Below are positions 33,029 through 53,894 of a stretch of DNA of 59,406 bases, in pieces. Position 1 is the first letter of the stretch; the number at the start of each line of letters is the position of its first letter. The DNA lies in assembly GCF_003122325.1 (NCBI RefSeq), contig NZ_QFBC01000026.1, forward strand, positions 1 to 59,406. The letters run 5' to 3'. A model generated the notes under the pieces. The model was not told where the DNA came from. It was given only the letters and a program-made list of their open reading frames with translations, and did not search any database. Source of the DNA: Rhizobium album (GTDB lineage: Bacteria > Pseudomonadota > Alphaproteobacteria > Rhizobiales > Rhizobiaceae). The translations under genes were made by a program, and so were the position numbers.

Positions 33029-33077
33029 AATGGTCGGAATGGCGGGATTCGAACCCACGACCCCTTGACCCCCAGTC
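33029..33077. repeat. attL: 49-bp direct repeat, 3' part of tRNA-Pro
   Basis: 49 bases identical to 53816-53864. They span tRNA-Pro positions 31 to 77 (anticodon loop, T arm, acceptor 3' strand, CCA) plus two bases. After 33077 the sequence departs from a tRNA, so this is a remnant and not a functional gene. Confidence 0.93.
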
Positions 33078-33224
33078 TTGTTGAGTACGTTTTATAGCCA
33101 TTCCTCGCGTTGCACAATACGCCCACAAGCCGCATGTTTCCAGCACTGTCTAACCGATGCCCGCTTGACTGATTAAATCGCTCGCCTACTATGCTGGCTA
33201 TATTCTGGCTACAAAGGAATGGGC

Positions 33225-34466
33225 ATGGCTAAAATTCGTATCACCGCGGCGACTGTGACAAGCCTTATGGAAAGTCCCTCACCGCCCAAGACGACTTTTT
33301 ATTTCGATGCCGATCTTGCCGGCTTCGGCCTCTACAGAACCTCTGGTGGGACCGGCACGTATTTCGCCGAATTTCGCCCAATCGCTGGCGGATCAAAGAA
33401 GAGAATCAAACTTGGCCGCGTTGGAACCCTCAAGCCTAGCGAAGCTCGCGAAGCGGCGCGGAAAGCCATCGCCCACGCGGGCCTTGGGAAAGATCTTTCC
33501 AAAGATCGCTCGGACGCACGCGCTAGCTTAACGGTAAAGGATCTGGCTTCTAGATATATCGAGGAGTTTGTCGCGACGAATAAGAAGGAGTCGTCGGCGG
33601 AATTCTATCGGATGATGCTCCGGAAGCATATCGAGCCCCATATCGGCACGAGCAAAGCTTCAGTGCTTACGCGCGTTGAAGTGCAGCGAGCGCACTCCGC
33701 CATGTCCAAGGTCGCTCGCATATCCGCGAATCGCTCCATGAAGCTCCTCGGCGCCGCGTTTGTCTGGGGGGCAAAGAATGGATTGGTGCCAGAAAATTTC
33801 AATCCTGCATCAGGCGTTGATTTGAACAGGGAACAAGGTCGCGAGCGTTTTTTAACGCAGGACGAAATGGCTCAACTTGGTGAGGCGATGCGAGAAGCTG
33901 AGACTGTCGGCTTCCCTGCCAAAGTAACCGAAGCCAAGCACGCACCGAAGGGGCAGCTGCATGTTATGCATCCGTCCATCACCGGCGCCATCCGACTTTA
34001 TATGCTGACTGGCATGCGGCTCCGAGAGGTTCTTCATCTGCGATGGGACGACGTCGATGTAGATCGCGGCTTCTTGTTTCTGCCCGATTCAAAAACTGGC
34101 CGAAAAACAGTGGTGCTTTCTGCTGCGGCCACCGAAGTCTTGAAGGCCATCCCGAAAGTCGGCGTGTATGTCATTGCGGGTGAAAGTGCCGGTCTCGATA
34201 ATGAGAGGCCAAGAGCTGACCTTAAGCGGCCCTGGGCGGCAATAACTAAGCGGGCCGGCCTGGATGGGCTACGCATACACGATCTGAGGCATTCGTTCGC
34301 GTCAGTCGGGGCCTGGTCGGGGCTGGGGTTGCCAGTGATTGGAAAGCTACTCGGTCATGCTGATGCGAAGACAACCGCTCGATACGCGCACGTTGACGCT
34401 GAGTCTTCGCGGCGGGCGGCAGACGCCATAGCGTCCCAAATCGCTATTGCGATGGGAGAAAAATAA
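33225..34466 (+). CDS. int: Tyrosine recombinase/integrase
   Basis: 413 aa. The ATG at 33225 is preferred (AAAGGA six bases upstream); the ATG at 33219 overlaps that site. N-terminal arm-binding/DUF4102-like part (DADLAGFGLYRTSGGTG), core-binding SAM-like domain (about 100-180), then the catalytic domain with Arg near 265 (TGMRLREVLHL), Lys near 290 (SKTGRKTVV), HDLRHSFAS near 352-358, LLGHADAKTTARYAHV with His near 378 and the nucleophile Tyr near 387. All catalytic residues are present. It lies 148 bases from attL and reads into the element, so it should mediate integration at tRNA-Pro. Confidence 0.96.
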   Translation: MAKIRITAATVTSLMESPSPPKTTFYFDADLAGFGLYRTSGGTGTYFAEFRPIAGGSKKRIKLGRVGTLKPSEAREAARKAIAHAGLGKDLSKDRSDARASLTVKDLASRYIEEFVATNKKESSAEFYRMMLRKHIEPHIGTSKASVLTRVEVQRAHSAMSKVARISANRSMKLLGAAFVWGAKNGLVPENFNPASGVDLNREQGRERFLTQDEMAQLGEAMREAETVGFPAKVTEAKHAPKGQLHVMHPSITGAIRLYMLTGMRLREVLHLRWDDVDVDRGFLFLPDSKTGRKTVVLSAAATEVLKAIPKVGVYVIAGESAGLDNERPRADLKRPWAAITKRAGLDGLRIHDLRHSFASVGAWSGLGLPVIGKLLGHADAKTTARYAHVDAESSRRAADAIASQIAIAMGEK

Positions 34467-34937: not shown

Positions 34938-35138
34938 ATGGCAAACTATCGAGTAAAGCAGGCTGCGGAATACATCGGCGTATCGAAATCCCTGCTCGAC
35001 AAACTAAGGTGCTATGGGGGTGGGCCGGCCTATGCCAAACTCGGATCGAGCGTGATTTATTCGACAATCGACCTCGATGCGTGGGTCGCATCGAAACGAG
35101 TTGCGGCGAACAGCAATGAAGCAGCCGCACGCGCATGA
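34938..35138 (+). CDS. AlpA-like/excisionase-family DNA-binding protein
   Basis: 66 aa with GGAGG seven bases before the ATG. It is a single winged HTH of the HTH_17/AlpA type: YRVKQAAEYIGVSKSLLDKLRCYG, then the wing PAYAKLGSSVIYSTIDLDAWV. In phage and satellite elements such proteins act as excisionase or as activator of the integrase/replication genes (AlpA, P4 Vis). ATGA overlap with the next gene. Confidence 0.85.
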   Translation: MANYRVKQAAEYIGVSKSLLDKLRCYGGGPAYAKLGSSVIYSTIDLDAWVASKRVAANSNEAAARA

Positions 35139-36157
35139 CCATGCTGGCCCCTCTTTTTGAAATTCCGGTCGCTGCGAACCAGAATTCAGCAAGCTTAAAT
35201 CCACATTCAAAATCTGCAGAATTTCAATTCGAGCGACCTGATTGGGCGCTTTTCCGTTCCATCGGAACCCTCTCGCAAAAGGCTGGAGTGCCAACAAAAC
35301 TCTTGCGTCGTCTGGTCCTGAAAGAGCTTGTCGATAATGCCTTGGACGCAGGCGGCGACTCGATGATTGGGCAGAAGGGCGAAACCTACTTCATAGTAGA
35401 CACAGGTCCGGGCATCGATGGAGGCCCGCAAGACATCGCCCGTATGTTCTCGATCAATCGTCCCATGGTCTCCTCGAAGCTCTGGAGACTGCCGAAGCGC
35501 GGCGCCCTTGGTAACGGTCTACGCGTCGTCGCCGGCGCCGTACTTTCATCTGGCGGTAGGCTAGTCGTCACCACCCGGAACACGCGACATGTGCTGACCC
35601 CTCGCGAAGATGGCGGCACGGACGTCATGCCGGAACAGGTGGATTTCCCCGTCGGCACGATGATCGAGATTGAATTTGGCTCGGACATGCCGGCCGATCC
35701 TCTTGCTATGCGCTGGGGCGAGGATGCAATCCGCATGGCATCCGGCGAAACTTACATCGGGAAGCCTTCACCCTTCTGGTATGACGCTGACCATTTTTTT
35801 GAACTGCTTCAGGCAGGCAAAGATCGGCCCGTCCGGGAACTGGTGGCTCAGCTCGACGGTTGTACGGGAGCCAAGGCGGGTCAGATATCGGAAGCATTCA
35901 AAGGAATGTCCTGTCAGGCTCTCGACCGTGACCAAGCTGTCGCCTTGCTCGGCGCTGCACGGGCGCATGCAAAGCCGGTTTCGGCCCGTCGACTTGGATC
36001 AGTCGGCAAGTCGTCATTCCTACCAGAATGGTACGCCTCCGAAAGCGGCAGCGTGCAGATCGGCGTTCGGAATCCAAAAGCCGAAATTCCGTTTGTGATC
36101 GAGGCATGGTGCGACTTTCACGGAAGCAGAGATGACGATGTTAGCATCAGTTCATAG
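35135..36157 (+). CDS. GHKL ATPase (topoisomerase VI B-like), C-terminally truncated
   Basis: 340 aa, coupled by ATGA to the AlpA-like gene. The three GHKL ATP-binding boxes are present: N-box LKELVDNALDAGG (about 64-76), G1 VDTGPGIDGG, and G2 GALGNGLRVVAGAV. A transducer-like part follows (residues 200-320). The frame stops at 36157 right after FVIEAWCDFHGSRDDDVSIS. In the full-length proteins of this type that I recall, this N-terminal module continues into a Toprim/TopVIA-like part. Here an apparent internal deletion joins this point to a C-terminal piece in another frame (next entry). Probably inactive as a topoisomerase; ATP binding may remain. Confidence 0.75.
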   Translation: MTMLAPLFEIPVAANQNSASLNPHSKSAEFQFERPDWALFRSIGTLSQKAGVPTKLLRRLVLKELVDNALDAGGDSMIGQKGETYFIVDTGPGIDGGPQDIARMFSINRPMVSSKLWRLPKRGALGNGLRVVAGAVLSSGGRLVVTTRNTRHVLTPREDGGTDVMPEQVDFPVGTMIEIEFGSDMPADPLAMRWGEDAIRMASGETYIGKPSPFWYDADHFFELLQAGKDRPVRELVAQLDGCTGAKAGQISEAFKGMSCQALDRDQAVALLGAARAHAKPVSARRLGSVGKSSFLPEWYASESGSVQIGVRNPKAEIPFVIEAWCDFHGSRDDDVSISS

Positions 36158-36801: not shown

Positions 36802-38782
36802 ACCCGTCTATCTCAACCCGCACGCCGTCGCGAAAGCGATCGGTGGTAAGGTCATCACCGGCACCAACAAGGTCGTCGCACATGCCCCAGGCCACAAGAA
36901 GGGCTCGCCCGAGATTTCCATCACCGTCGATCCGTCCGCTCCTCGCGGGCTACTGGTCAATTGTTTCAGCGGCGAAGATCCGGTGGCTATGAAGGACTGG
37001 GTTCTTGAGCGTTGCGGCGAGCCAGCCTTTACGCCCGGTCAGAAAGCCGAGGAACCGATCGCGCATGCCGGCCTGCTGAAATCCAAGGATACCCCGAAAG
37101 CGTTCTACGACGGTCACCTGACGCGACAGGGCTATTCGACCGTGGCGGAATACGACTATGCCACGCCTGATGGCGAGATCCTTTTTCAGGTGCTGCGCTA
37201 CGAGGGCGCGGGTCTTAGCAAGACGTTCCTACAGCGGCAGCCTGACGGCAAGGGCGGCTGGCTCTCCGGCCGTCCGGATCCAATCATCTATCGCTGGCCG
37301 GAAGTTGCTTCACGGCCTGGCGAGCCGGTTTATGTCGTCGAAGGTGAGAAGGACGTCGACACGTTGATCATCGCTGGCCTGCTTGCAACGACCGCGCCTA
37401 ATGGCTCATGGCCGACGGACCTATCATCCTTGAAAGGTCGAACGGTCTTCGTCATTCCAGACAACGATGCCCCCGGTGCTGAGAAGGCCGACAAGGTGAT
37501 CGCGCTCCTGCAGGGCATCGCCACGGTCAAGCGCGTCGTGCTTCCGGGGCTGCCGGACAAAGGCGACGTGACCGACTGGCTGGCGGCCGGCAACGCGGTT
37601 GAGCAGTTGCAGGCTCTCGCCAAGGCCGCGATGCCTGCACCGGCCAATGATAACCGTCCCGCTGGTCCCGAACTCATCCACAGTGGTGATTTCGTGAGGG
37701 GATTCGTTCCGCCCGACTACGCGGTCGACGGCATCATGCAGTCAGGGTTTCTGTATTCGCTCACCGGCCAGACCGGGTCCGGAAAGACGGCCGTGGCGCT
37801 GCTGCTTGCCCTCTGCACCGCTCTCGGATCGCCGTTTGCAGGGCGTGAGACCAAGGGCGGCAGGGTGTTCTACTTCGCCGGCGAGAACCCCGACGATGTC
37901 ACAATGAGGTGGATCGGCCTCCTTCACGAACACGCTCTCGATGCAGACGAACTCGATGTGCACTTTATCCGTGGCGTGTTCTCGGTGTCGGAATTCCTCG
38001 GCCATATAACCGAGCGTGCCCGCGATCTTGGTGGCGTCGATCTCATCGTCGTGGATACCACGGCCGCCTACTTCACCGGTTCCGATGAAAACTCGAACGT
38101 GGAGATGGGGAACTATGCCCGCCAGCTCCGGGAACTTGCCAAGATGGAGTGGCGGCCAGCCGTGCTGGCGGCCAGCCATCCGGTCAAGAATGCCGGTGCC
38201 GATAACCTGCTGCCTCGAGGTGGCGGTGCCTTCCTGAATGAAGTCGACGGCAACCTCACCCTGGCGAAACGTGGCGAGATGTCGGTGCTGCATTGGCAAG
38301 GGAAACATCGCGGGCCGGATTTCCTGCCACTGACCTTCGACTTGAAGACCATCAACGCCCCAGCGCTGGTGGACAGCAAGGGGCGGCCGATCCCGACCGT
38401 CATGGCGGCACCAGTCGGCGACGATGAGGTGGCGCAGCGTGCCGATTCCGACAACGGCGACGACAAGGTCATGCTCCTCGCCATCCGGCAGAACGGCAAT
38501 CGGTCTCTGCGGGACCTTGCTGAATTCCATGGCTGGACGAACACAAAGGGGGAGCCCGACAAGAAGCGGGCGCAGAACTCCACCGATCGGCTGAAACGGG
38601 CGCAATACGTCTTGTACGAGCTGCAGCAATGGAAGCTGACCAAGAAGGGAGAGGAAGCAGCGTCATCAGCCGCCGCCGATCTCCACGAGCAGCGAAAGTG
38701 GGCGGGTGTCGTCCAGGGCATGGCCGAGAAGGCTGGTCGAAAACAACGCCGTACTGGCTCAGATCGTACCGCGAGGGAATGA
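36779..38782 (+). CDS. Toprim-AAA primase-helicase (replication protein of the element)
   Basis: 667 aa. N-terminal region about 1-150 has a zinc-less CHC2-like part (VAHAPGHKKGSPEISITV; LLVNCFSGEDP). The Toprim domain at about 183-270 has VYVVEGEKDVDTLI (acidic Glu), VFVIPDNDAPGAEKAD (Asp pair) and DVTDWLAAG. The AAA_25/RepA-type helicase at about 305-520 has Walker A LTGQTGSGKTAVALLL, Walker B VDLIVVDTTAAYF, and ASHPVKNAG, GGGAFLNEVDG sensor motifs. The C-terminal winged-helix-like tail (NRSLRDLAEFHGW) may bind DNA. Same functional layout as satellite replication proteins such as P4 alpha, though not homologous over the full length as far as I can tell. Nine repeated boxes lie at and beyond its 3' end. 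Confidence 0.9.
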   Translation: MNVQPQPEPVYLNPHAVAKAIGGKVITGTNKVVAHAPGHKKGSPEISITVDPSAPRGLLVNCFSGEDPVAMKDWVLERCGEPAFTPGQKAEEPIAHAGLLKSKDTPKAFYDGHLTRQGYSTVAEYDYATPDGEILFQVLRYEGAGLSKTFLQRQPDGKGGWLSGRPDPIIYRWPEVASRPGEPVYVVEGEKDVDTLIIAGLLATTAPNGSWPTDLSSLKGRTVFVIPDNDAPGAEKADKVIALLQGIATVKRVVLPGLPDKGDVTDWLAAGNAVEQLQALAKAAMPAPANDNRPAGPELIHSGDFVRGFVPPDYAVDGIMQSGFLYSLTGQTGSGKTAVALLLALCTALGSPFAGRETKGGRVFYFAGENPDDVTMRWIGLLHEHALDADELDVHFIRGVFSVSEFLGHITERARDLGGVDLIVVDTTAAYFTGSDENSNVEMGNYARQLRELAKMEWRPAVLAASHPVKNAGADNLLPRGGGAFLNEVDGNLTLAKRGEMSVLHWQGKHRGPDFLPLTFDLKTINAPALVDSKGRPIPTVMAAPVGDDEVAQRADSDNGDDKVMLLAIRQNGNRSLRDLAEFHGWTNTKGEPDKKRAQNSTDRLKRAQYVLYELQQWKLTKKGEEAASSAAADLHEQRKWAGVVQGMAEKAGRKQRRTGSDRTARE

Positions 38783-39071
38783 GGGCGGTACGGCATTCAG
38801 AAAAACATATGAATATCAATGACTTGTAATCGTACCGGGCCATTTTCGTAACAAAACCAAACCAAATTACTTGGACAGAGGGGGGACTTCGTCCCCTCCT
38901 GTCCAATGGTCGAAATCATACCGTACCGTACTTACCCTTTCTCTAGGGGGGTGGCTTTCATGGTACGGCATTGATTGAGCAATATTATCAATTAGATACG
39001 CCGTACCGCATCAGGATTTTGACGGTACGGGTACGGACATGAAGGGAGCACACCATGATGCAGATCGTACC
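38765..39071. repeat. Iteron-like array: nine CGTACC/GGTACG boxes (candidate replication origin)
   Basis: Hexamer CGTACC or its complement begins at 38765, 38787, 38831, 38922, 38962, 39002, 39024, 39030 and 39066. Most are extended to CGTACCG/CGGTACG, and GGTACGGCATT occurs twice. By chance about 0.15 copies would be expected in 307 bases. Two AT-rich stretches (38801-38830 and 38977-39000) lie between the boxes. The array directly follows the primase-helicase gene, where an origin would be expected; an operator array is the alternative. Confidence 0.75.
38871..38906. other. Long hairpin inside the iteron-like array
   Basis: TTGGACAG (38871-38878) pairs with CTGTCCAA (38899-38906), and the interior GGGGAC-TTC-GTCCCC adds a second stem with small bulges. 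No U-tract follows. It may be an extruded origin structure, a primase start site or a transcript end for the primase gene. Confidence 0.7.
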
Positions 39072-39342
39072 AACAGCCCCAGGCTATTCGGCTCTTGTCC
39101 TCGAGGCCGACTTCGCTGCCGAGTTGCCTATCGTAGCATGGGAGCACTCGGCCGGCGCCACGCTTCCTCTCGTCATCGGCCATCTGCCCGGGGGCGAGAC
39201 GTCGTTCGATGCAGTTAAGCTGCCCGATGGCCGTGTCTACGATTGCTGGAAGAGGGAGATGTATCGCGATCAGGTTGAGTGGACCCGCGTCGTCGGCGAG
39301 TCGAAGGGTCTTAGCATTTTTGGCACGACGGAGGCAGCATGA
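39055..39342 (+). CDS. Element protein of unknown function
   Basis: 95 aa (ATGATG start; GAAGGGAG upstream suits either). Mixed alpha/beta sequence with AAELPIVAWEHSAGATLPLVIGH and PDGRVYDCWKREMYRDQVEW. No family recognised; it looks like a small phage-type protein related to host DNA or antirestriction functions only in size. The start overlaps the last CGTACC box, so the gene could be controlled by whatever binds the array. ATGA overlap with the next gene. Confidence 0.65.
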   Translation: MMQIVPTAPGYSALVLEADFAAELPIVAWEHSAGATLPLVIGHLPGGETSFDAVKLPDGRVYDCWKREMYRDQVEWTRVVGESKGLSIFGTTEAA

Positions 39343-40451
39343 TCACCATCGGAAACGCCAGATTCGCATCCAGCGCCACCCATACCGGCGAACCGTGGCA
39401 CGGCTGGCCGATCTCGAAGACCCTTCAGCCCTACCGTCCCAAACCGGCCAACGACAACAAGCCTGAGCGCTTCCGCGGCGGCTATCCGGCACTGTCCTGG
39501 CTCGCCGAACAGGACCCAGACGCAGTCGTGGCCATCGCCACCATCATGGCCGACTTCCGCCCCGTCTATCGGGATAAGGACGATCAGGGTGACGACTTGG
39601 ACAGCAGCGACGATCGCATGCGCATCCATCCGGATCCAGACGACCTCGTGGAAGCAGCCAGCGATGGGCGGGCTATCGGCCCCAAGGGCAGGCTAGCTGC
39701 CCGTACCGGTGCATTGCGGTCCGGCTTCCCGGCAACGGAGAAGCAATACCGTCTCGGTGGCACCCGCTACCGTCTCGGCCGCGCCGTGTTCACAGTGGAC
39801 TCCTCTGAAACGCAGCAGGGCCTGCTAACTTACTGGCTCGACGAGAAAGGCACCGTCCAGATTCCACGCGAACAGAGTTCCCAGCGGAAGGGCAGCCGAA
39901 TTCCCATCGTCTGGGCCGTCGAGCGCTACATGCGATTCCGGAACGACCGTCCGCGCAACGATCGCGATGCGGCGATGGAGAAGCTCTACGACTCCGAGTG
40001 CCTGGCGTTCCACCTTCGTCGTCGCGGCACGCCACTGCCTGCACAAGTGTACGGCCCGGCCGGCCATTCTCGCATTGATATCTCGGAAGAGAAGGCGACG
40101 CTGCGCGCCTGGCTGGCGGAGCAGACGGACGGCCACGCTTTCACTCGCCTTCCGGATGGCGTTGCTAGCTCAACGACTTGGCTCGGCCGCGTCGGTGGCA
40201 ACAAGCAAGGCCTTTCGGTTCCGGAAATCTGGCGTGAGCCGGAGGCCGCGCCAGAACTACCGGTTGATGTCTTGCTGACAATCGAGACCATGCTCGCGCG
40301 CGGTGACCTGACTGACGTCGCCGAGGCCCACAGGGTCGAGACCACGCGTCCCGATCGTGTTGGCAAGCGTCTGGTACTCAAGGCTGGAAATGCCGCGCTG
40401 GCCCTGATGCCGGCCAACGACAACAAAAAAACGAAAAAAGTTGCGGCATGA
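39339..40451 (+). CDS. Element protein of unknown function (370 aa)
   Basis: Starts at the ATGA overlap with the preceding gene. The sequence is soluble and hydrophilic, with a PANDNKP stretch near residue 37 and a PANDNKK stretch at the C-terminus, an acidic DKDDQGDDLDSSDDRM segment near 80, and a basic RFRNDRPRNDRDAAMEKLY segment near 200. The middle (RYRLGRAVFTVDSSETQQGLLTYW) is beta-rich. No catalytic motif or known domain was recognised. Position between the replication module and the structural-type genes suggests a replication accessory or element-specific function. Confidence 0.65.
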   Translation: MITIGNARFASSATHTGEPWHGWPISKTLQPYRPKPANDNKPERFRGGYPALSWLAEQDPDAVVAIATIMADFRPVYRDKDDQGDDLDSSDDRMRIHPDPDDLVEAASDGRAIGPKGRLAARTGALRSGFPATEKQYRLGGTRYRLGRAVFTVDSSETQQGLLTYWLDEKGTVQIPREQSSQRKGSRIPIVWAVERYMRFRNDRPRNDRDAAMEKLYDSECLAFHLRRRGTPLPAQVYGPAGHSRIDISEEKATLRAWLAEQTDGHAFTRLPDGVASSTTWLGRVGGNKQGLSVPEIWREPEAAPELPVDVLLTIETMLARGDLTDVAEAHRVETTRPDRVGKRLVLKAGNAALALMPANDNKKTKKVAA

Positions 40452-40694: not shown

Positions 40695-41048
40695 ATGACC
40701 TTCGCCACCAGCGACCTAGCAGGCCTCCTCGGCCTCTCGGAAGCTGCCATTCGCCAATGGCTTTGCCGCGCACCAGCATTCCATATCGGGGCAGTTCGCG
40801 GTCACGCGCGCATCTACAACCGTGTCGAGGCCCTCTGCATCGCCATCGCAGCCGAACTCTTCCGCCATCGTCTCGGTCGACCGCATGAGGTTCTACCCAT
40901 CGCCCGCCAGATCGCTGCGTCCGGCGCCGACGCCATCTGGGTTTATCGCCCGCAAGGCGGCCCGATCACCACCGCTACCGACCAACCCGCCGATACTGCC
41001 GTACATCTTCCGCTCGCGGAACTGCGGCGCCGGCTCTCGAAGCAATGA
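40695..41048 (+). CDS. MerR-like helix-turn-helix protein
   Basis: 117 aa; the ATG at 40695 has a strong AAAGGAGG. The N-terminal 50 residues resemble a MerR-type winged HTH (TSDLAGLLGLSEAAIRQWLCRAPAF, wing GHARIYNRVEALCIAIAAEL). The C-terminal half is helical with no obvious effector domain. It could be the transcriptional regulator of the downstream block, to which it is coupled by an ATGA overlap; it lies after a terminator, so a promoter must be near 40645-40690. Confidence 0.78.
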   Translation: MTFATSDLAGLLGLSEAAIRQWLCRAPAFHIGAVRGHARIYNRVEALCIAIAAELFRHRLGRPHEVLPIARQIAASGADAIWVYRPQGGPITTATDQPADTAVHLPLAELRRRLSKQ

Positions 41049-41998
41049 AAGGAATCCCGTTGGGAAAACTGATCAATAAAATCCTCGGCAAGCAGTCGTC
41101 CAGCGACATTGCCGCCGCAATCACCAAAGCCCAGGCCGAGCTAGAGGCTGCCGAAGCGGCCGTCGCTGCCGCGGAAGAGCAATACGACGCCCACTTGCTG
41201 ACCGCCGACAAGAAGTCATTGCGCGGTTTTCTGGACGCGAAGACGGAAGCGGGCATTGATGTAGACCAGGCGCGCGCTCGCATCCAGCGTCTCGAGCGGG
41301 ACCACGAGGCCGCCGTTGAGTCCGAAGCCGAGTCCGAGCGCCAGGCCGCCTACGATCGTGCGAAGGAACTGGCGGCTACTGCCCGGAAAAAGCTCGGAGA
41401 CTATGAGAAGGCGGCCATGGCGATCCGCGACGTTCTGCGCGCCATCGCCGAAGCCGACGTGGCCGTCGAAGCCGCGAACGCCGATCTGCCCGACGGCGCG
41501 GCCCGCATCGAGAAGCCGGAGGAATGCCGGTCTTCGCCAAATTTATATAAGAAAGTCCTGAAGGAAGAGGTCGTCGAACTCTGGGCCGGTATCGGCGACC
41601 AGTCCCGGCCCGTCGAGCATCAACACCGTGTACGTGTTGAGCATGTCGGCAAGCGCGTCCGAAGCCGATGGAGCGAGGAAGACTTCGACGAGGGCGGCTG
41701 GGAGAAGGGCTACTACGCCACAGACGGCGGCGGGACGATCGAGGTGGTGAAACGCCGGTTCATCAAGCGCACGTACCTTCCGGACGACACGGGCCAGTAT
41801 GCTGTTTCTCTGGCGAGCGCCGTCAGCCTGCCGCCAGCCATCGTAGGTGGTCCCGTGTTCTTCGAGCCGGGCAGCTACCATGCCCCCGGTCTCCTAGCGA
41901 AACTGGATCAGCCCCTGCCACCCTGTCGTATCCGTGCGGAGCGCAAGCCTGAGATCGAATATGTGCTTGCCCCCAAGGAGGTTGCCCTTGCGTCTTGA
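41045..41998 (+). CDS. Coiled-coil protein of unknown function, upstream of the ClpP-like protease
   Basis: 317 aa, coupled to the regulator by ATGA. Residues 18-150 are strongly coiled-coil (Ala/Glu/Arg/Lys heptads: AQAELEAAEAAVAAAEEQYD and a later RIQRLERDHEAAVESEAESE). The C-terminal half is globular with a WEKGYYATDGGGTIEVVKRR and PGLLAKLDQPLPP. Immediately followed by, and overlapping, the phage-type protease gene. A scaffold-like or protease-partner role is conceivable but unproven. Confidence 0.65.
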   Translation: MKGIPLGKLINKILGKQSSSDIAAAITKAQAELEAAEAAVAAAEEQYDAHLLTADKKSLRGFLDAKTEAGIDVDQARARIQRLERDHEAAVESEAESERQAAYDRAKELAATARKKLGDYEKAAMAIRDVLRAIAEADVAVEAANADLPDGAARIEKPEECRSSPNLYKKVLKEEVVELWAGIGDQSRPVEHQHRVRVEHVGKRVRSRWSEEDFDEGGWEKGYYATDGGGTIEVVKRRFIKRTYLPDDTGQYAVSLASAVSLPPAIVGGPVFFEPGSYHAPGLLAKLDQPLPPCRIRAERKPEIEYVLAPKEVALAS

Positions 41999-42722
41999 TC
42001 TGTTTGGCGTCGTCGGGGAGGACTTTACCCCGACGACCGTCCGCGCCGCGCTGCCGTACAGCGGGGACATCACGGTCACCATAAACAGTGGTGGCGGCAT
42101 CGCCGTCGATGGCAGCGCCATATACAACATCCTTGCCGCTCACCGCGGCAAGGTTGCGGTCGAAATTATCGGCATTGCAGCTTCGGCCGCAAGCCTGATT
42201 GCCATGGCCGGTCACACCATCACAATGCTGGACGGATCGATTTTAATGATCCACGAGCCGCAGAACATCACGGTCGGCGACTCGGCGGCGCATCAGAAGA
42301 CGGTGGAGCAATTGGAAGCACACGCGGTTGCATATGCCAAGGTGTATGCCAAGCGCGCCAGAATTTCCGAGGCAGCGGCCCGCCAGGTCATGAAGGCCGA
42401 GACCTGGTATACGCCGGACGAAGCAGTAGCCGCGGGATTCGCAACCGCCGTGGTGGACCGCCGCGCCGTGCCTTTCGCCTCCGTTGATAAGCGATATGAG
42501 GCGCGGATGCACGCCGTGCATGCTCGCGCCGCAGCCTCGCCTCGTGGCCTGAAGAAGGTTGCGGACGCCAAGGCGTCGTGGGCTCGGGTTGTCGCCTCTA
42601 TGAATAAATCGATGGGCTACGCGCCTGCCGTGAAGCCGGAGGAGGCGAAGCCGAGAGTCGAGCTGACCGGTTGGTCGAAGGTCATCGAGGAGCACAACTC
42701 GTTCGTCCGACGGCACCGGTAG
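41988..42722 (+). CDS. ClpP-type protease, phage head-maturation class
   Basis: 244 aa from the TTG at 41988, chosen because AAGGAGG lies seven bases upstream; the preceding frame shows no other start signal. The fold core is conserved: ITVTINSGGGIAVDGSAIYN, catalytic Ser near 66 in IGIAASAASLIAMAG and His near 89 in LMIHEP. It is clearly distinct from the chromosomal ClpP (low identity, no ClpX-docking features) and has a C-terminal basic extension after residue 165. In phages such proteases trim capsid and scaffold. No portal or capsid gene is beside it here, which is odd. Confidence 0.88.
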   Translation: MRLDLFGVVGEDFTPTTVRAALPYSGDITVTINSGGGIAVDGSAIYNILAAHRGKVAVEIIGIAASAASLIAMAGHTITMLDGSILMIHEPQNITVGDSAAHQKTVEQLEAHAVAYAKVYAKRARISEAAARQVMKAETWYTPDEAVAAGFATAVVDRRAVPFASVDKRYEARMHAVHARAAASPRGLKKVADAKASWARVVASMNKSMGYAPAVKPEEAKPRVELTGWSKVIEEHNSFVRRHR

Positions 42723-45401: not shown

Positions 45402-47906
45402 TTAGACAAAGTCGTCATTTGCCAATTCAGCTACGCCTGTCAAAACCAGCGTCGCGTCTGGAGAAAGCAACCATGTTATGGTTCCGCCAGAGACGGAGAC
45501 GTTGGTATCGCCAACGCCAATAACATTGTCGTTATTGGAATCGGCTGCGCCGAAGTCGAAACCGATAGCACGGAGATCGAGTTTATCGGAGCCACGAGCA
45601 AACCCGGAAATTGTGTCCGTGCCATCAACTAGATTGCGAACGACGAAGATATCCGCACCGGTGGTCCCATTGAGATTGTCGGGGCCTGCGCCTCCAGATA
45701 TTTGATTCTCGTCGAAGAATATATCCGTCGAATCCGACTTAACATTGAAGGGACCAGTGAATTTCGAATTATTGTTGTCGAATACAACGTTGCCGATAAT
45801 ATCGACATTGTTCACTTCTTTGCTTGCTACCGGTTCATACCCGTTCTCACCTACGGAAATTCCATAGAGTTTGGCCCCCGACACCGTATTGCCGCTGACA
45901 GTCACATCCGATTGAAAAACAGATATACCGGTGTGACCCACTCTTTCAATCGTATTGCCTGTAATGGTGCCACCGTCTCCAACATTGTTATCAGCGCCTT
46001 TACGCTCACCAAGCATTATACCGCTTCGGACGTAGTCGTGAATGTAATTGCCCTCGATAGTCGTGTTGGTCGAGTAATACGCATAGACACCGCCGTGCCC
46101 GTCGCCCTTGCCGTTGTGCATCTCGTTGTTTGAAATCGACGTGTCGTTCGCCCCTTCACTAACGGTGACACCATCCTGGGTATCGTAAATTCTATTGAAT
46201 TCAACAACAGCACCCTCGTGGTTCTGAATCACGATCCCATCGTCGTTTGCATTATGGACAATATTGAATCGTATTTGCGCGCCTGAGTTCGAAGTATCAC
46301 CATCGGTAATAATCATGTCGGCCTTGTCGCCTGTCGCGCCGGTCAGTTCAAACCCATTTATTTCCACATTGTTTGCTTGGATCTTGATGAAACCCGTTGC
46401 GCCATCGGCATTTACGATACTCTCTTCTCCTCCGCCTTGGGTTCTCAAATGCGCCGCTTGTCTTGGATCAATGTCCATTTGCGCGCCGAGCAACCTTAAA
46501 CCATCTTGGTCGATTACGATGGGCGCGCCTGCAGTATGATAACTTCCGGAACCAACCACGATAGTATAGTTTGCGCTGGCGGCATCGACCGCGGCATTGA
46601 TGGGATTAGCGTTTTGGTGCCACAGCGGATTGTCATTAGGGTTTGCTTTAGCGCTGTAGATGGCCACGAGCGTACCAGTCGCGTTGAAAACGTGCACCTC
46701 ATCGGCCGGCGGAATGACGACGATGTCCAAGCCTGTGGTTGGTGCGATGGTTGCGGCATTGCCTGCATTATCCTCAATTGTACCGCTGTACCCCGCAACC
46801 TCAAGATCGGATGCTGACTCGGCGCCTACAGTATATGAGAATTCAAGTGTATTTGTACCGGTGCCGCCGGTCAATTCTGCTTCACGACCACCAGTCAAAA
46901 GTAGCTTAGCGTCCGCTCCAGCGTCAACCGATTCTGCAAAGGTCACGGTAAAGACAATTGTTTCGCCTGAGCTAAACGAACCATCACCAGAAGCAGCGAC
47001 CGCTCCCTCTGGAGCGATAGTATCAATAACAATGTCGAGATCTGTCGTAGGGGTGATACTTCCGACATTACCAGCTGTGTCTTTTATCTCCCCGCTACCC
47101 ACGACAATACCCTGGATTTCCACATCCGTGGCATTCTCTGAAGCCGGTGCGAAATAGGAAAAGGTAACATGTTGGGTACCAGACCCACCTTCATAATTTG
47201 CGGTTCCACCGTTTGATAGCGATAGCTGAAGTGTCGCGGGGACAATTACGTTTTCTAAAAAGTCCACGCTAAATGTGATCTTTTCGCCCGCTTTAAAAGT
47301 ATGGTCTCCGGCTGAAGAGGGATTGACGGTCCCGATTGGTGCTACAGTGTCTGGGTTGGACCCGCCGCTGCTACTTCCACCGCCAGGTTGCTGACCTTGA
47401 TCGGTAAAGAGTTGGAGAATAGCTGCATCCGCTTCTGTTTCTGTACCCGGGTCGTCCTTGGTAACCGCGTCCAGGAAACCTCGACCGATCTCTGCAGCTT
47501 CGTCTCCACGATACGCTTCTATCTCAATGTCGAGGTCAAGATGTGACGTAAAGATATTGGCAGCGGCAATCTTTGCGTTGACTGTGTCGAGATCTTCGTT
47601 CTTGGCACCATCAAGGATGGCAATCGCGATGTTGTTGATGGTCAGACGGCCGGCTTCAAGTTCGCCGACATAGAAGTCAACGCCTTCAGCTTCGCCGTCG
47701 CGCTCGAACAGAGACTGGTAAATCGAGTTGATGATCTGCTCATTGGTCATGCCGGTAAAACGGCTCTGGTATTCTGTGGTAGAAGCCAGATCGCCGATTG
47801 CCGTCAGGTCGGCGCCATTGTTCGTGGCTTCATTGAAGAATGCAAGGCCGGCCGGGTCGGCCGGACGACCGAAGAGCGCGACATAAATGCCTTGGATGGT
47901 AGCCAT
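45402..47906 (-). CDS. Large secreted DUF4214 / Ig-like / beta-helix / RTX-type protein (element cargo)
   Basis: 834 aa, with GAGGGAG before the ATG. Order: DUF4214 repeats (about 1-150; IQGIYVALFGRPADPAGLAFF, IINSIYQSLFERDGEAEG); a Gly/Ser linker; two Ig-like repeats of about 100 aa (GTVNPSSAGDHTFKAGEKIT and GAVAASGDGSFSSGETIVFT) each ending in DTAGN/DNAGN; a right-handed parallel beta-helix with PbH1-type rungs (about 440-720; SNNEMHNGKGDGHGGVYAYY, EGNYIHDYVRSGIML); then one RTX-like GPDNLNGTTGADIFV and the TISGFARGSDKLDL motif with a C-terminal DDFV end. This is a type-I secretion substrate layout. No classical signal peptide. The beta-helix suggests polysaccharide binding or cleavage. Lower GC than neighbours; no secretion ABC genes in the window. 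Confidence 0.88.
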   Translation of the reverse strand: MATIQGIYVALFGRPADPAGLAFFNEATNNGADLTAIGDLASTTEYQSRFTGMTNEQIINSIYQSLFERDGEAEGVDFYVGELEAGRLTINNIAIAILDGAKNEDLDTVNAKIAAANIFTSHLDLDIEIEAYRGDEAAEIGRGFLDAVTKDDPGTETEADAAILQLFTDQGQQPGGGSSSGGSNPDTVAPIGTVNPSSAGDHTFKAGEKITFSVDFLENVIVPATLQLSLSNGGTANYEGGSGTQHVTFSYFAPASENATDVEIQGIVVGSGEIKDTAGNVGSITPTTDLDIVIDTIAPEGAVAASGDGSFSSGETIVFTVTFAESVDAGADAKLLLTGGREAELTGGTGTNTLEFSYTVGAESASDLEVAGYSGTIEDNAGNAATIAPTTGLDIVVIPPADEVHVFNATGTLVAIYSAKANPNDNPLWHQNANPINAAVDAASANYTIVVGSGSYHTAGAPIVIDQDGLRLLGAQMDIDPRQAAHLRTQGGGEESIVNADGATGFIKIQANNVEINGFELTGATGDKADMIITDGDTSNSGAQIRFNIVHNANDDGIVIQNHEGAVVEFNRIYDTQDGVTVSEGANDTSISNNEMHNGKGDGHGGVYAYYSTNTTIEGNYIHDYVRSGIMLGERKGADNNVGDGGTITGNTIERVGHTGISVFQSDVTVSGNTVSGAKLYGISVGENGYEPVASKEVNNVDIIGNVVFDNNNSKFTGPFNVKSDSTDIFFDENQISGGAGPDNLNGTTGADIFVVRNLVDGTDTISGFARGSDKLDLRAIGFDFGAADSNNDNVIGVGDTNVSVSGGTITWLLSPDATLVLTGVAELANDDFV

Positions 47907-53815: not shown

Positions 53816-53894
<79 letters not shown>

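Follow-up and report, generated by a model that had tools for sequence, protein, structure and literature searches.

An array of CGTACC boxes in a Rhizobium album element, very probably read by the winged helix of the adjoining primase-helicase: a candidate replication origin

The Rep initiator of phage-inducible chromosomal islands (PICIs) is an AAA+/MCM-like helicase, the iteron words of Staphylococcus aureus pathogenicity islands (SaPIs) differ from island to island, and work on SaPI Rep and its origin is reportedly that of Ubeda 2007. In the accessible passages on these islands, the origin lies directly 3' of the initiator-helicase gene and consists of short iterons around an A/T-rich region (PMC7581432, PMC6092414), while the C-terminal domain of SaPI Rep recognises the iterons directly downstream of the rep gene (PMC7581432). 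A similar layout is seen in the 59,406 nucleotides of Rhizobium album analysed here (NCBI RefSeq assembly GCF_003122325.1, contig NZ_QFBC01000026.1; hereafter the window), where an array of nine CGTACC boxes stands right 3' of the gene for a 667-aa primase-helicase, within a 20.8-kb tRNA-integrated element, with iteron sets around A/T-rich stretches. We hold with considerable confidence that this array supplies the iterons of the origin that belongs to the element itself, bound by the C-terminal winged helix of the primase-helicase. That the primase-helicase reads the boxes is very probable, its binding specificity being strongly supported by covariation and prediction, and we infer origin activity from adjacency, anatomy and the SaPI precedent as given in the passages cited (PMC7581432, PMC6092414). 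The locus differs from SaPI/PICI Rep in its helicase, which is of a Toprim plus RecA-like, T7 gp4-like class, and in its setting, which comprises a tRNA-integrated element, IMG/VR viral contigs and genomes of mostly alphaproteobacteria. The principle is known from SaPI/PICI Rep, whereas the helicase class, the setting and a residue-to-base code appear to be new.

Satellite P4 encodes its own primase-helicase, alpha, with a C-terminal origin-binding domain, and its replicon has iterons in two separate cis regions, crr and ori; the P4 iteron, which we take to be GGTGAACA, resembles the word GGTGAAC of one relative of the present locus (L087). A P4-type likeness had been proposed in a first-pass annotation of the window made from its letters alone, and this did not hold: P4 alpha carries an SF3 helicase, whereas the 667-aa protein matches AAA_25 alone and general PHROG primase/helicase families, has a RecA-like fold of the T7 gp4/Twinkle kind, and brought up no P4-named family in the Pfam and PHROG results, and kinship with P4 was rejected. 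The RepA initiator of the PICI-like elements (PLEs) is not known to be a helicase. According to the passages available, its DNA-binding domain covaries with the origin and modules have been swapped; it is a RepA_N initiator with semi-palindromic iterons of about 30 bp, and these passages give no residue-to-base code (PMC8263062). The closest annotated phage is RHph_Y3_1 (MN988490), the Toprim half of which is 47.5% identical (aa 1-333) in a similar gene order, with an array (L028, 12934-13150) between its primase/helicase gene and a 111-aa ORF (open reading frame). Its box word, CGTTCCCA, is different, the helicase halves do not align (BLASTP), and the record annotates no origin or repeat there.

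The first-pass annotation had reported nine CGTACC/GGTACG hexamers within 307 bases, and the same nine exact copies were recovered at the same positions (38765-39071), five on the + and four on the - strand, far above the mean of 0.25 and the maximum of 4 in 2000 dinucleotide shuffles of the array's own 307 bp. The whole window holds 22 such hexamers against 14.3 expected (0.07 per 307 bp, so that the earlier chance figure of 0.15 was of the right order). Equal density elsewhere, named in advance as a finding that would speak against an origin, was not seen in the window, where any other 307-bp stretch has at most two copies and only one CGTACC cluster is seen. The extended boxes were likewise recovered, CGGTACGG/CCGTACCG occurring four times (38786, 38921, 39001 and 39023) and GGTACGGCATT twice (38787 and 38962), as were two A/T-rich stretches and a long hairpin (Table 1). 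The gaps between boxes measure 34-85 bp, the A/T-rich stretches lying in two of them, and a one-mismatch copy, CGTACT, begins 5 bp after the start of box 4, at 38927. The array had been placed directly after the Toprim-AAA gene; it does adjoin the gene, and it also reaches into both neighbours, its first box falling within the final codons of the helicase gene (stop 38782) and its last just inside the ORF 39055-39342.

This position, between two ORFs of the same strand with the last box entering the second, would also suit an operator, bound by the primase-helicase or a separate repressor mainly for transcription control of the primase-helicase's own operon or the genes downstream, with replication starting elsewhere; iterons often double as operators. 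We consider this unlikely, since no sigma-70-like promoter or terminator match was found in 38600-39200 (weak evidence in this bacterial group), since the arrays of relatives, which comprise 5-19 boxes and A/T-rich gaps in some 200 bp, exceed usual operators, and since the box letters covary with the recognition helix of the helicase itself, the only element protein compared.

In the 667-aa protein, AAA_25 is the sole Pfam match (E 5e-25), the PHROG match is to primase/helicase (E 3e-32), and a sequence search of PDB returned no match at E 0.001. An AlphaFold2 model (mean predicted local distance difference test score, pLDDT, 87.5; predicted template modelling score 0.64) found its best folds in T7 gp4, the Rad51 family and Twinkle, the T7 gp4 primase-helicase being first in Foldseek (5ikn, E 6.5e-14; also 1q57) and Twinkle (8e2l) standing at rank 20. 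By the secondary structure and fold matches of this model, the protein belongs to the T7 gp4-like type, in which a Toprim primase core is fused to a RecA-like helicase that, in this type, is hexameric. It differs from T7 gp4 in a further C-terminal winged helix that, as judged from the comparisons below, reads a specific word; T7 gp4 is not known to have such a domain. In the whole-protein model, the C-terminal domain has helices at 548-571, 577-583 and 595-607 and wing strands at 611-614 and 617-620. Modelled separately (pLDDT 91.6), the domain gave MarR/MntR/CggR-like winged helices as PDB matches, with weak E-values (0.0066 and above). Residues 595, 596, 599 and 600 lie at the start of the helix 595-607, where the predicted winged helix has a pLDDT of about 96. 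The winged-helix centromere-binding protein AspA (5k5q) is also among the weak matches (E 0.026), and some relatives have the array at a distance of roughly 0.5 to 3.8 kb from the gene, both of which would fit boxes that serve as a loading, partition (centromere-like) or packaging site for the helicase and not as a replication start. Such a role is very unlikely in our judgement, as the domain that reads the boxes forms part of a primase-helicase, an enzyme that would naturally use an origin, and no ParA-type match was found among the element ORFs scanned (Pfam, PHROGs).

Recurrence was assessed in loci from IMG/VR, a named-organism genome collection (51 loci) and further genomes. The 51 named-organism loci are mostly from Hyphomicrobiales (for example, Azorhizobium, Ancylobacter, Mesorhizobium and Bradyrhizobium), other named hosts being Rhodovibrio, Tropicimonas and metagenome-assembled genomes of Burkholderiales and Thermoflexales; a search widened within the order gave 5/397 genomes, the window's own counted. 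Among annotated phages, no record covered 80% of the window-type helicase region, and plasmids gave a single weak match of 25%. In 126 of 173 loci from several helicase subfamilies (near-duplicates kept, distant homologues excluded), none of 200 shuffles reached the count of the commonest 6-mer of the 500 bp after the stop; the same held for only 1/162 stretches upstream, 0/147 within the gene and 3/153 at 1.5-2 kb. Among the distant homologues, roughly one in two lacks a downstream array (e.g. L008, L009, L010, L014, L024, L036 and L039-L041). Of 137 loci with a helicase of the window's type, three lacked a stop in the sequence; the remaining 134 were aligned, 116 were left below 95% identity and 115 could be scored. 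One YGTNNN word is present in at least five copies just downstream in 95/115 of these (window included), against 5/106 upstream, 2/111 in the gene and 2/101 at 1.5-2 kb, and box density in 87 loci is 18.3 per kb in the array region and 0.5 elsewhere. Five further window-type loci (L129, L131, L134, L143 and L176) have adjacent arrays of words outside the YGTNNN form (0/200 shuffles each).

The iteron-like target that had been proposed beside the primase-helicase recurs next to its homologues. The check suggested with it, a search for CGTACC clusters, is borne out for the arrays and not for the word, which is usually another one, so that, for the majority of relatives, a CGTACC-only search would be misleading. 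Among 27 loci examined first, CGTACC itself was found mostly as scattered copies outside the window, an apparent refutation that disappeared once every locus was examined for a word of its own. In L021, four CGTACC copies lie within about 205 bp just after a distant helicase homologue, the protein of which seems to end without the C-terminal domain; the commonest 6-mer there is not significant (94/200 shuffles). Judged by titles and abstract starts, no report on these arrays was found in the open-licence literature.

Most words fit 5'-[CT]GT-NNN, with 31 kinds among 86 loci (L155, discussed below, left out). The word switches between close relatives, the five closest of which (62-75% identical) have CGTACC (L093, L094 and L126) or CGTAGC (L092 and L095; helicase 63-68% identical). 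Three primase-helicase loci with separate words are present in the Rhizobium album genome itself, namely CGTACC (window), TGTCCC (sequence C21) and TGTGCG (sequence C12), as expected if words keep co-resident replicons apart. The C21 and C12 homologues (C21:13506-17252 and C12:463935-467345; L002 and L003) are 27% identical in the helicase part and are followed by dense arrays, with 18 GGACAA on C21 and 12 CGCACA on C12; an IMG/VR contig (L068; 44,450 bp, as C21) encodes a protein identical to the C21 primase-helicase. A relative of the C12 protein (L086) has no array and L079 has just five TGTATG. The words of the C21 subfamily are TGTCCC, TGTCTG, TGTATG and TGTCAC, in relatives that are 64-74% identical over nearly the whole protein. 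Two loci (L106 and L107) combine a window-type helicase with a C-terminal domain of the C21 subfamily (E 6e-14 and 2e-11), which by sequence comparison is a natural domain swap, and still have a downstream array, with 10 and 9 copies of TGTACG (CGTACA on the other strand). In the C21-subfamily C-terminal domains of L075 and L077, the helices read RFNRAKKDL (word TGTCAC) and RFQRAKKDL (word TGTCCC), which, judged by eye, suggests that another winged-helix family has a code of its own.

The letters of the words were compared with the columns of the protein by mutual information for the 87 loci with an unambiguous word (9 ambiguous loci and 20 without a word being left out). Position 1 has its peak at K595, position 4 at Q599 and position 5 at K596; at position 6, N600 is third. 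When all 415 columns of the protein are taken, 595 (z 20.8, next 8.4), 599 (z 13.2) and 596 (z 10.8) each rank first and 600 ranks second. When the set was thinned to 33 loci under 62% helicase identity, K595, Q599, K596 and N600 were each first of 393 columns. A change of letter was also compared with a change of residue in 42 disjoint nearest pairs, where 599 (p 1e-5) and 596 (p 6e-5) were both first of 334, with weaker results for 595 (p 0.011) and 600 (p 0.002), both at rank 2. Kinship does inflate mutual information, many columns having z above 4, and one counted word (L155) is a TG run; that chance, compositional repeats or shared ancestry lie behind the arrays and the covariation nevertheless deserves next to no credence, as it disagrees with the dinucleotide shuffles and three positional controls, and as some 400 ranked columns of the same phylogeny, the thinned set, the disjoint pairs and the pre-declared predictions lead to the same helix residues.

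In the mechanism that we propose, the primase-helicase would dock on the boxes via its C-terminal winged helix, and the N-terminal end of the recognition helix would read 5'-Y-G-T-N-N-N. Residue 595 would read position 1, K giving C (62/65 loci) and most others T (18/21; L137, without an aligned helix, excluded). Residue 599 would read position 4, with A for Q (20/25), G for R (8/9), C for E (4/4) and T for H, F or N (20/21); the pairs Gln-A and Arg-G are chemically familiar. Position 5 would be read by residue 596, with C for R, K or D (19/20), T for A (8/9) and G for W (3/3), and position 6 by residue 600, with C or G for R and A for A (4/4).

These rules were fixed in writing ahead of the collection of new loci, which gave 78 new proteins. 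Identity to the training proteins was below 95% for 22 of them, and eight of these were dropped (L242, L245, L252, L264, L271, L275 and L286 for fewer than five copies, L246 for a tie). In the remaining 14 loci, 43/48 letters were predicted correctly (12/14, 7/8, 11/12 and 13/14 per rule), against a mean of 28.6 and a maximum of 40 in word shuffles, 0/20000 of which reached the real score. Furthermore, five of 15 loci without an adjacent array (L163, L186, L192, L196 and L207) have a displaced one, counting clusters of six or more copies only, with an extra ORF of 265-311 codons between helicase gene and array. Their words fit the rules in 17/17 letters (18/19 including a doubtful cluster in L141), while a second cluster of at least six copies is present in 2/84 adjacent-array loci in windows starting at +600 to +800 and in 7/84 anywhere beyond +600. 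The opening sequences of the extra ORFs look alike by eye. In three loci of the RHph_Y3_1 type without an adjacent array (L060-L062), CGTTCC clusters lie 2.6-3.8 kb downstream, with raw counts of 5, 8 and 4 copies per 400 bp, and are clear only in L061.

Several observations weigh against reading of the boxes by the helicase, or limit its detail. At position 4, 599 is closely followed by M565 (z 13.2 vs 12.3), and an association of this position with 596 does not hold up in the pairs (p 0.048, rank 111). Position 6 is the weakest, with columns outside the helix (A461 and A496) beside or above 600 in the full set; without L155 (86 loci), 595, 599 and 596 stay first and 600 drops to third. The five copies of L155 are a TG run and no array, counted both in the 95 loci and in the training set. 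The code is not absolute, as the training counts for Q599 and R599 attest, and 5/48 test letters were wrong (L240 and L248 at position 1, L293 at 4, L276 at 5 and L256 at 6) in loci that are related to the training loci (53-94% identity). The YGT register was picked after the words were seen, and the strand is ambiguous for near-palindromic words. Ten of the 116 dereplicated loci have no array (L203 has just 487 bp after the gene), the upstream regions of 5/106 loci reach five copies, and the PDB matches of the C-terminal model are weak even at their best (E 0.0066). In L164, 12 copies of one YGTNNN word lie upstream of the helicase frame, the sole strong upstream case, which also counts against the proposal.

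Across the 87 loci, arrays span about +13 to +219 after the stop (medians), with boxes on both strands; the typical layout, by eye, is a cluster, then an A-rich gap of some 40-60 bp and then a >>..<< group. If the array is an origin, binding of several copies on both strands would lead to helicase assembly around the A/T-rich gap and its opening, and the helicase's own Toprim primase would prime synthesis at the opened gap. A strand-specific role in loading or priming is possible for the hairpin. In nine loci chosen for the same gap, the hairpin comprises seven consensus pairs, five with compensatory changes, in differing sequence. Perfect non-box palindromes with stems of 7 or more are present in 44/87 arrays, and stems with one mismatch and a score of at least 10 in 26/115 arrays (some built of boxes), against 2/345 shuffles and 1/113 in-gene stretches; the window's own hairpin scores 6 by the simple stem score, the shuffle median.

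For most temperate phages, a few models apart, the place where replication starts is not known, and few simple recognition codes are available for winged helices. The present results suggest that origins in one helicase group can be found from sequence, and that a winged helix holds a natural, fast-evolving protein-DNA recognition code. The broader proposition, that a large group of prophage primase-helicases has a nearly modular code of four residues and four bases and that each lineage thereby possesses a private, fast-switching origin word, is in our view evenly poised between right and wrong. If true, the origin word of a lineage could be read from its protein, the separate origins of mobile elements in one cell would become a testable question, and word switching would keep co-resident elements apart and could allow escape from origin-targeting nucleases or rivals. 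In the passages available on PLEs, iteron-directed attack by the Odn nuclease of phage ICP1 may select for diversification, and such attack on origins is a possible driver of word switching here (PMC8263062). The present loci are also a counter-candidate to the statement, in the accessible part of one report, that only PICIs have an origin of this layout (PMC6092414).

Table 1. Coordinates of the array, the primase-helicase gene and other features of the element in the window
Feature	Coordinates	Strand	Remark
Array of nine CGTACC boxes, candidate replication origin	38765..39071	.	
Box 1, within the end of the helicase gene	38765..38770	+	
Box 2, part of GGTACGGCATT	38787..38792	-	
Box 3	38831..38836	+	
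Box 4	38922..38927	+	
Box 5, part of GGTACGGCATT	38962..38967	-	
Box 6	39002..39007	+	
Box 7	39024..39029	-	
Box 8	39030..39035	-	
Box 9, within the start of the next ORF (39055-39342)	39066..39071	+	
A/T-rich gap between boxes, candidate unwinding site	38801..38830	.	24/30 A/T
Second A/T-rich gap	38969..38998	.	23/30 A/T
G/C-rich long hairpin, one-base bulge	38871..38906	.	structure retained, sequence changed in relatives
667-aa primase-helicase: Toprim-like part, RecA-like helicase (AAA_25), C-terminal winged helix	36779..38782	+	
Codons of the predicted C-terminal winged helix, residues 548-621	38420..38641	+	structure model
Codons of residues 595-600, N-terminal end of the recognition helix	38561..38578	+	595, 596, 599 and 600 covary with box letters
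Left att copy, 49-bp direct repeat	33029..33077	.	
Right att copy, overlaps tRNA-Pro (53818-53894, -)	53816..53864	.	
Tyrosine integrase, at the start of the element	33219..34466	+	Phage_integrase E 2e-22; PHROG integrase
95-aa ORF after the array, no family match	39055..39342	+	
370-aa ORF, no family match	39339..40451	+	

The 20.8-kb element that carries the array is bounded by a perfect 49-bp direct repeat (Table 1). The 95-aa and 370-aa ORFs after the array take the positions of the 111-aa and 385-aa ORFs of RHph_Y3_1, the likeness being positional only. Modules of the SaPI/PICI type are carried by satellites that have no virion genes themselves and are induced by a helper phage. The present element has an integrase and att repeats; it also encodes a head maturation protease ORF (PHROGs) and a DUF7483 protein (Pfam), and no terminase, portal or capsid match was found among the ORFs scanned (20 by Pfam and 10 by PHROGs, part of all ORFs); both a deleted prophage and a satellite are possible. 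At 41045-42722, an ORF of 317 aa that has no match overlaps the head-maturation-protease ORF at its start, and neither a terminase nor a portal was recognised between the two; a prophage with an internal deletion may be the source of this arrangement. The ORF at 35135-36157, which lies upstream of the primase-helicase gene, weakly matches a GHKL-type ATPase (E 2.6e-4, short of the Pfam cut-off). On the - strand of the element, 45402-47906 encodes an 834-aa protein with DUF4214 and right-handed beta-helix matches, which is possibly cargo.

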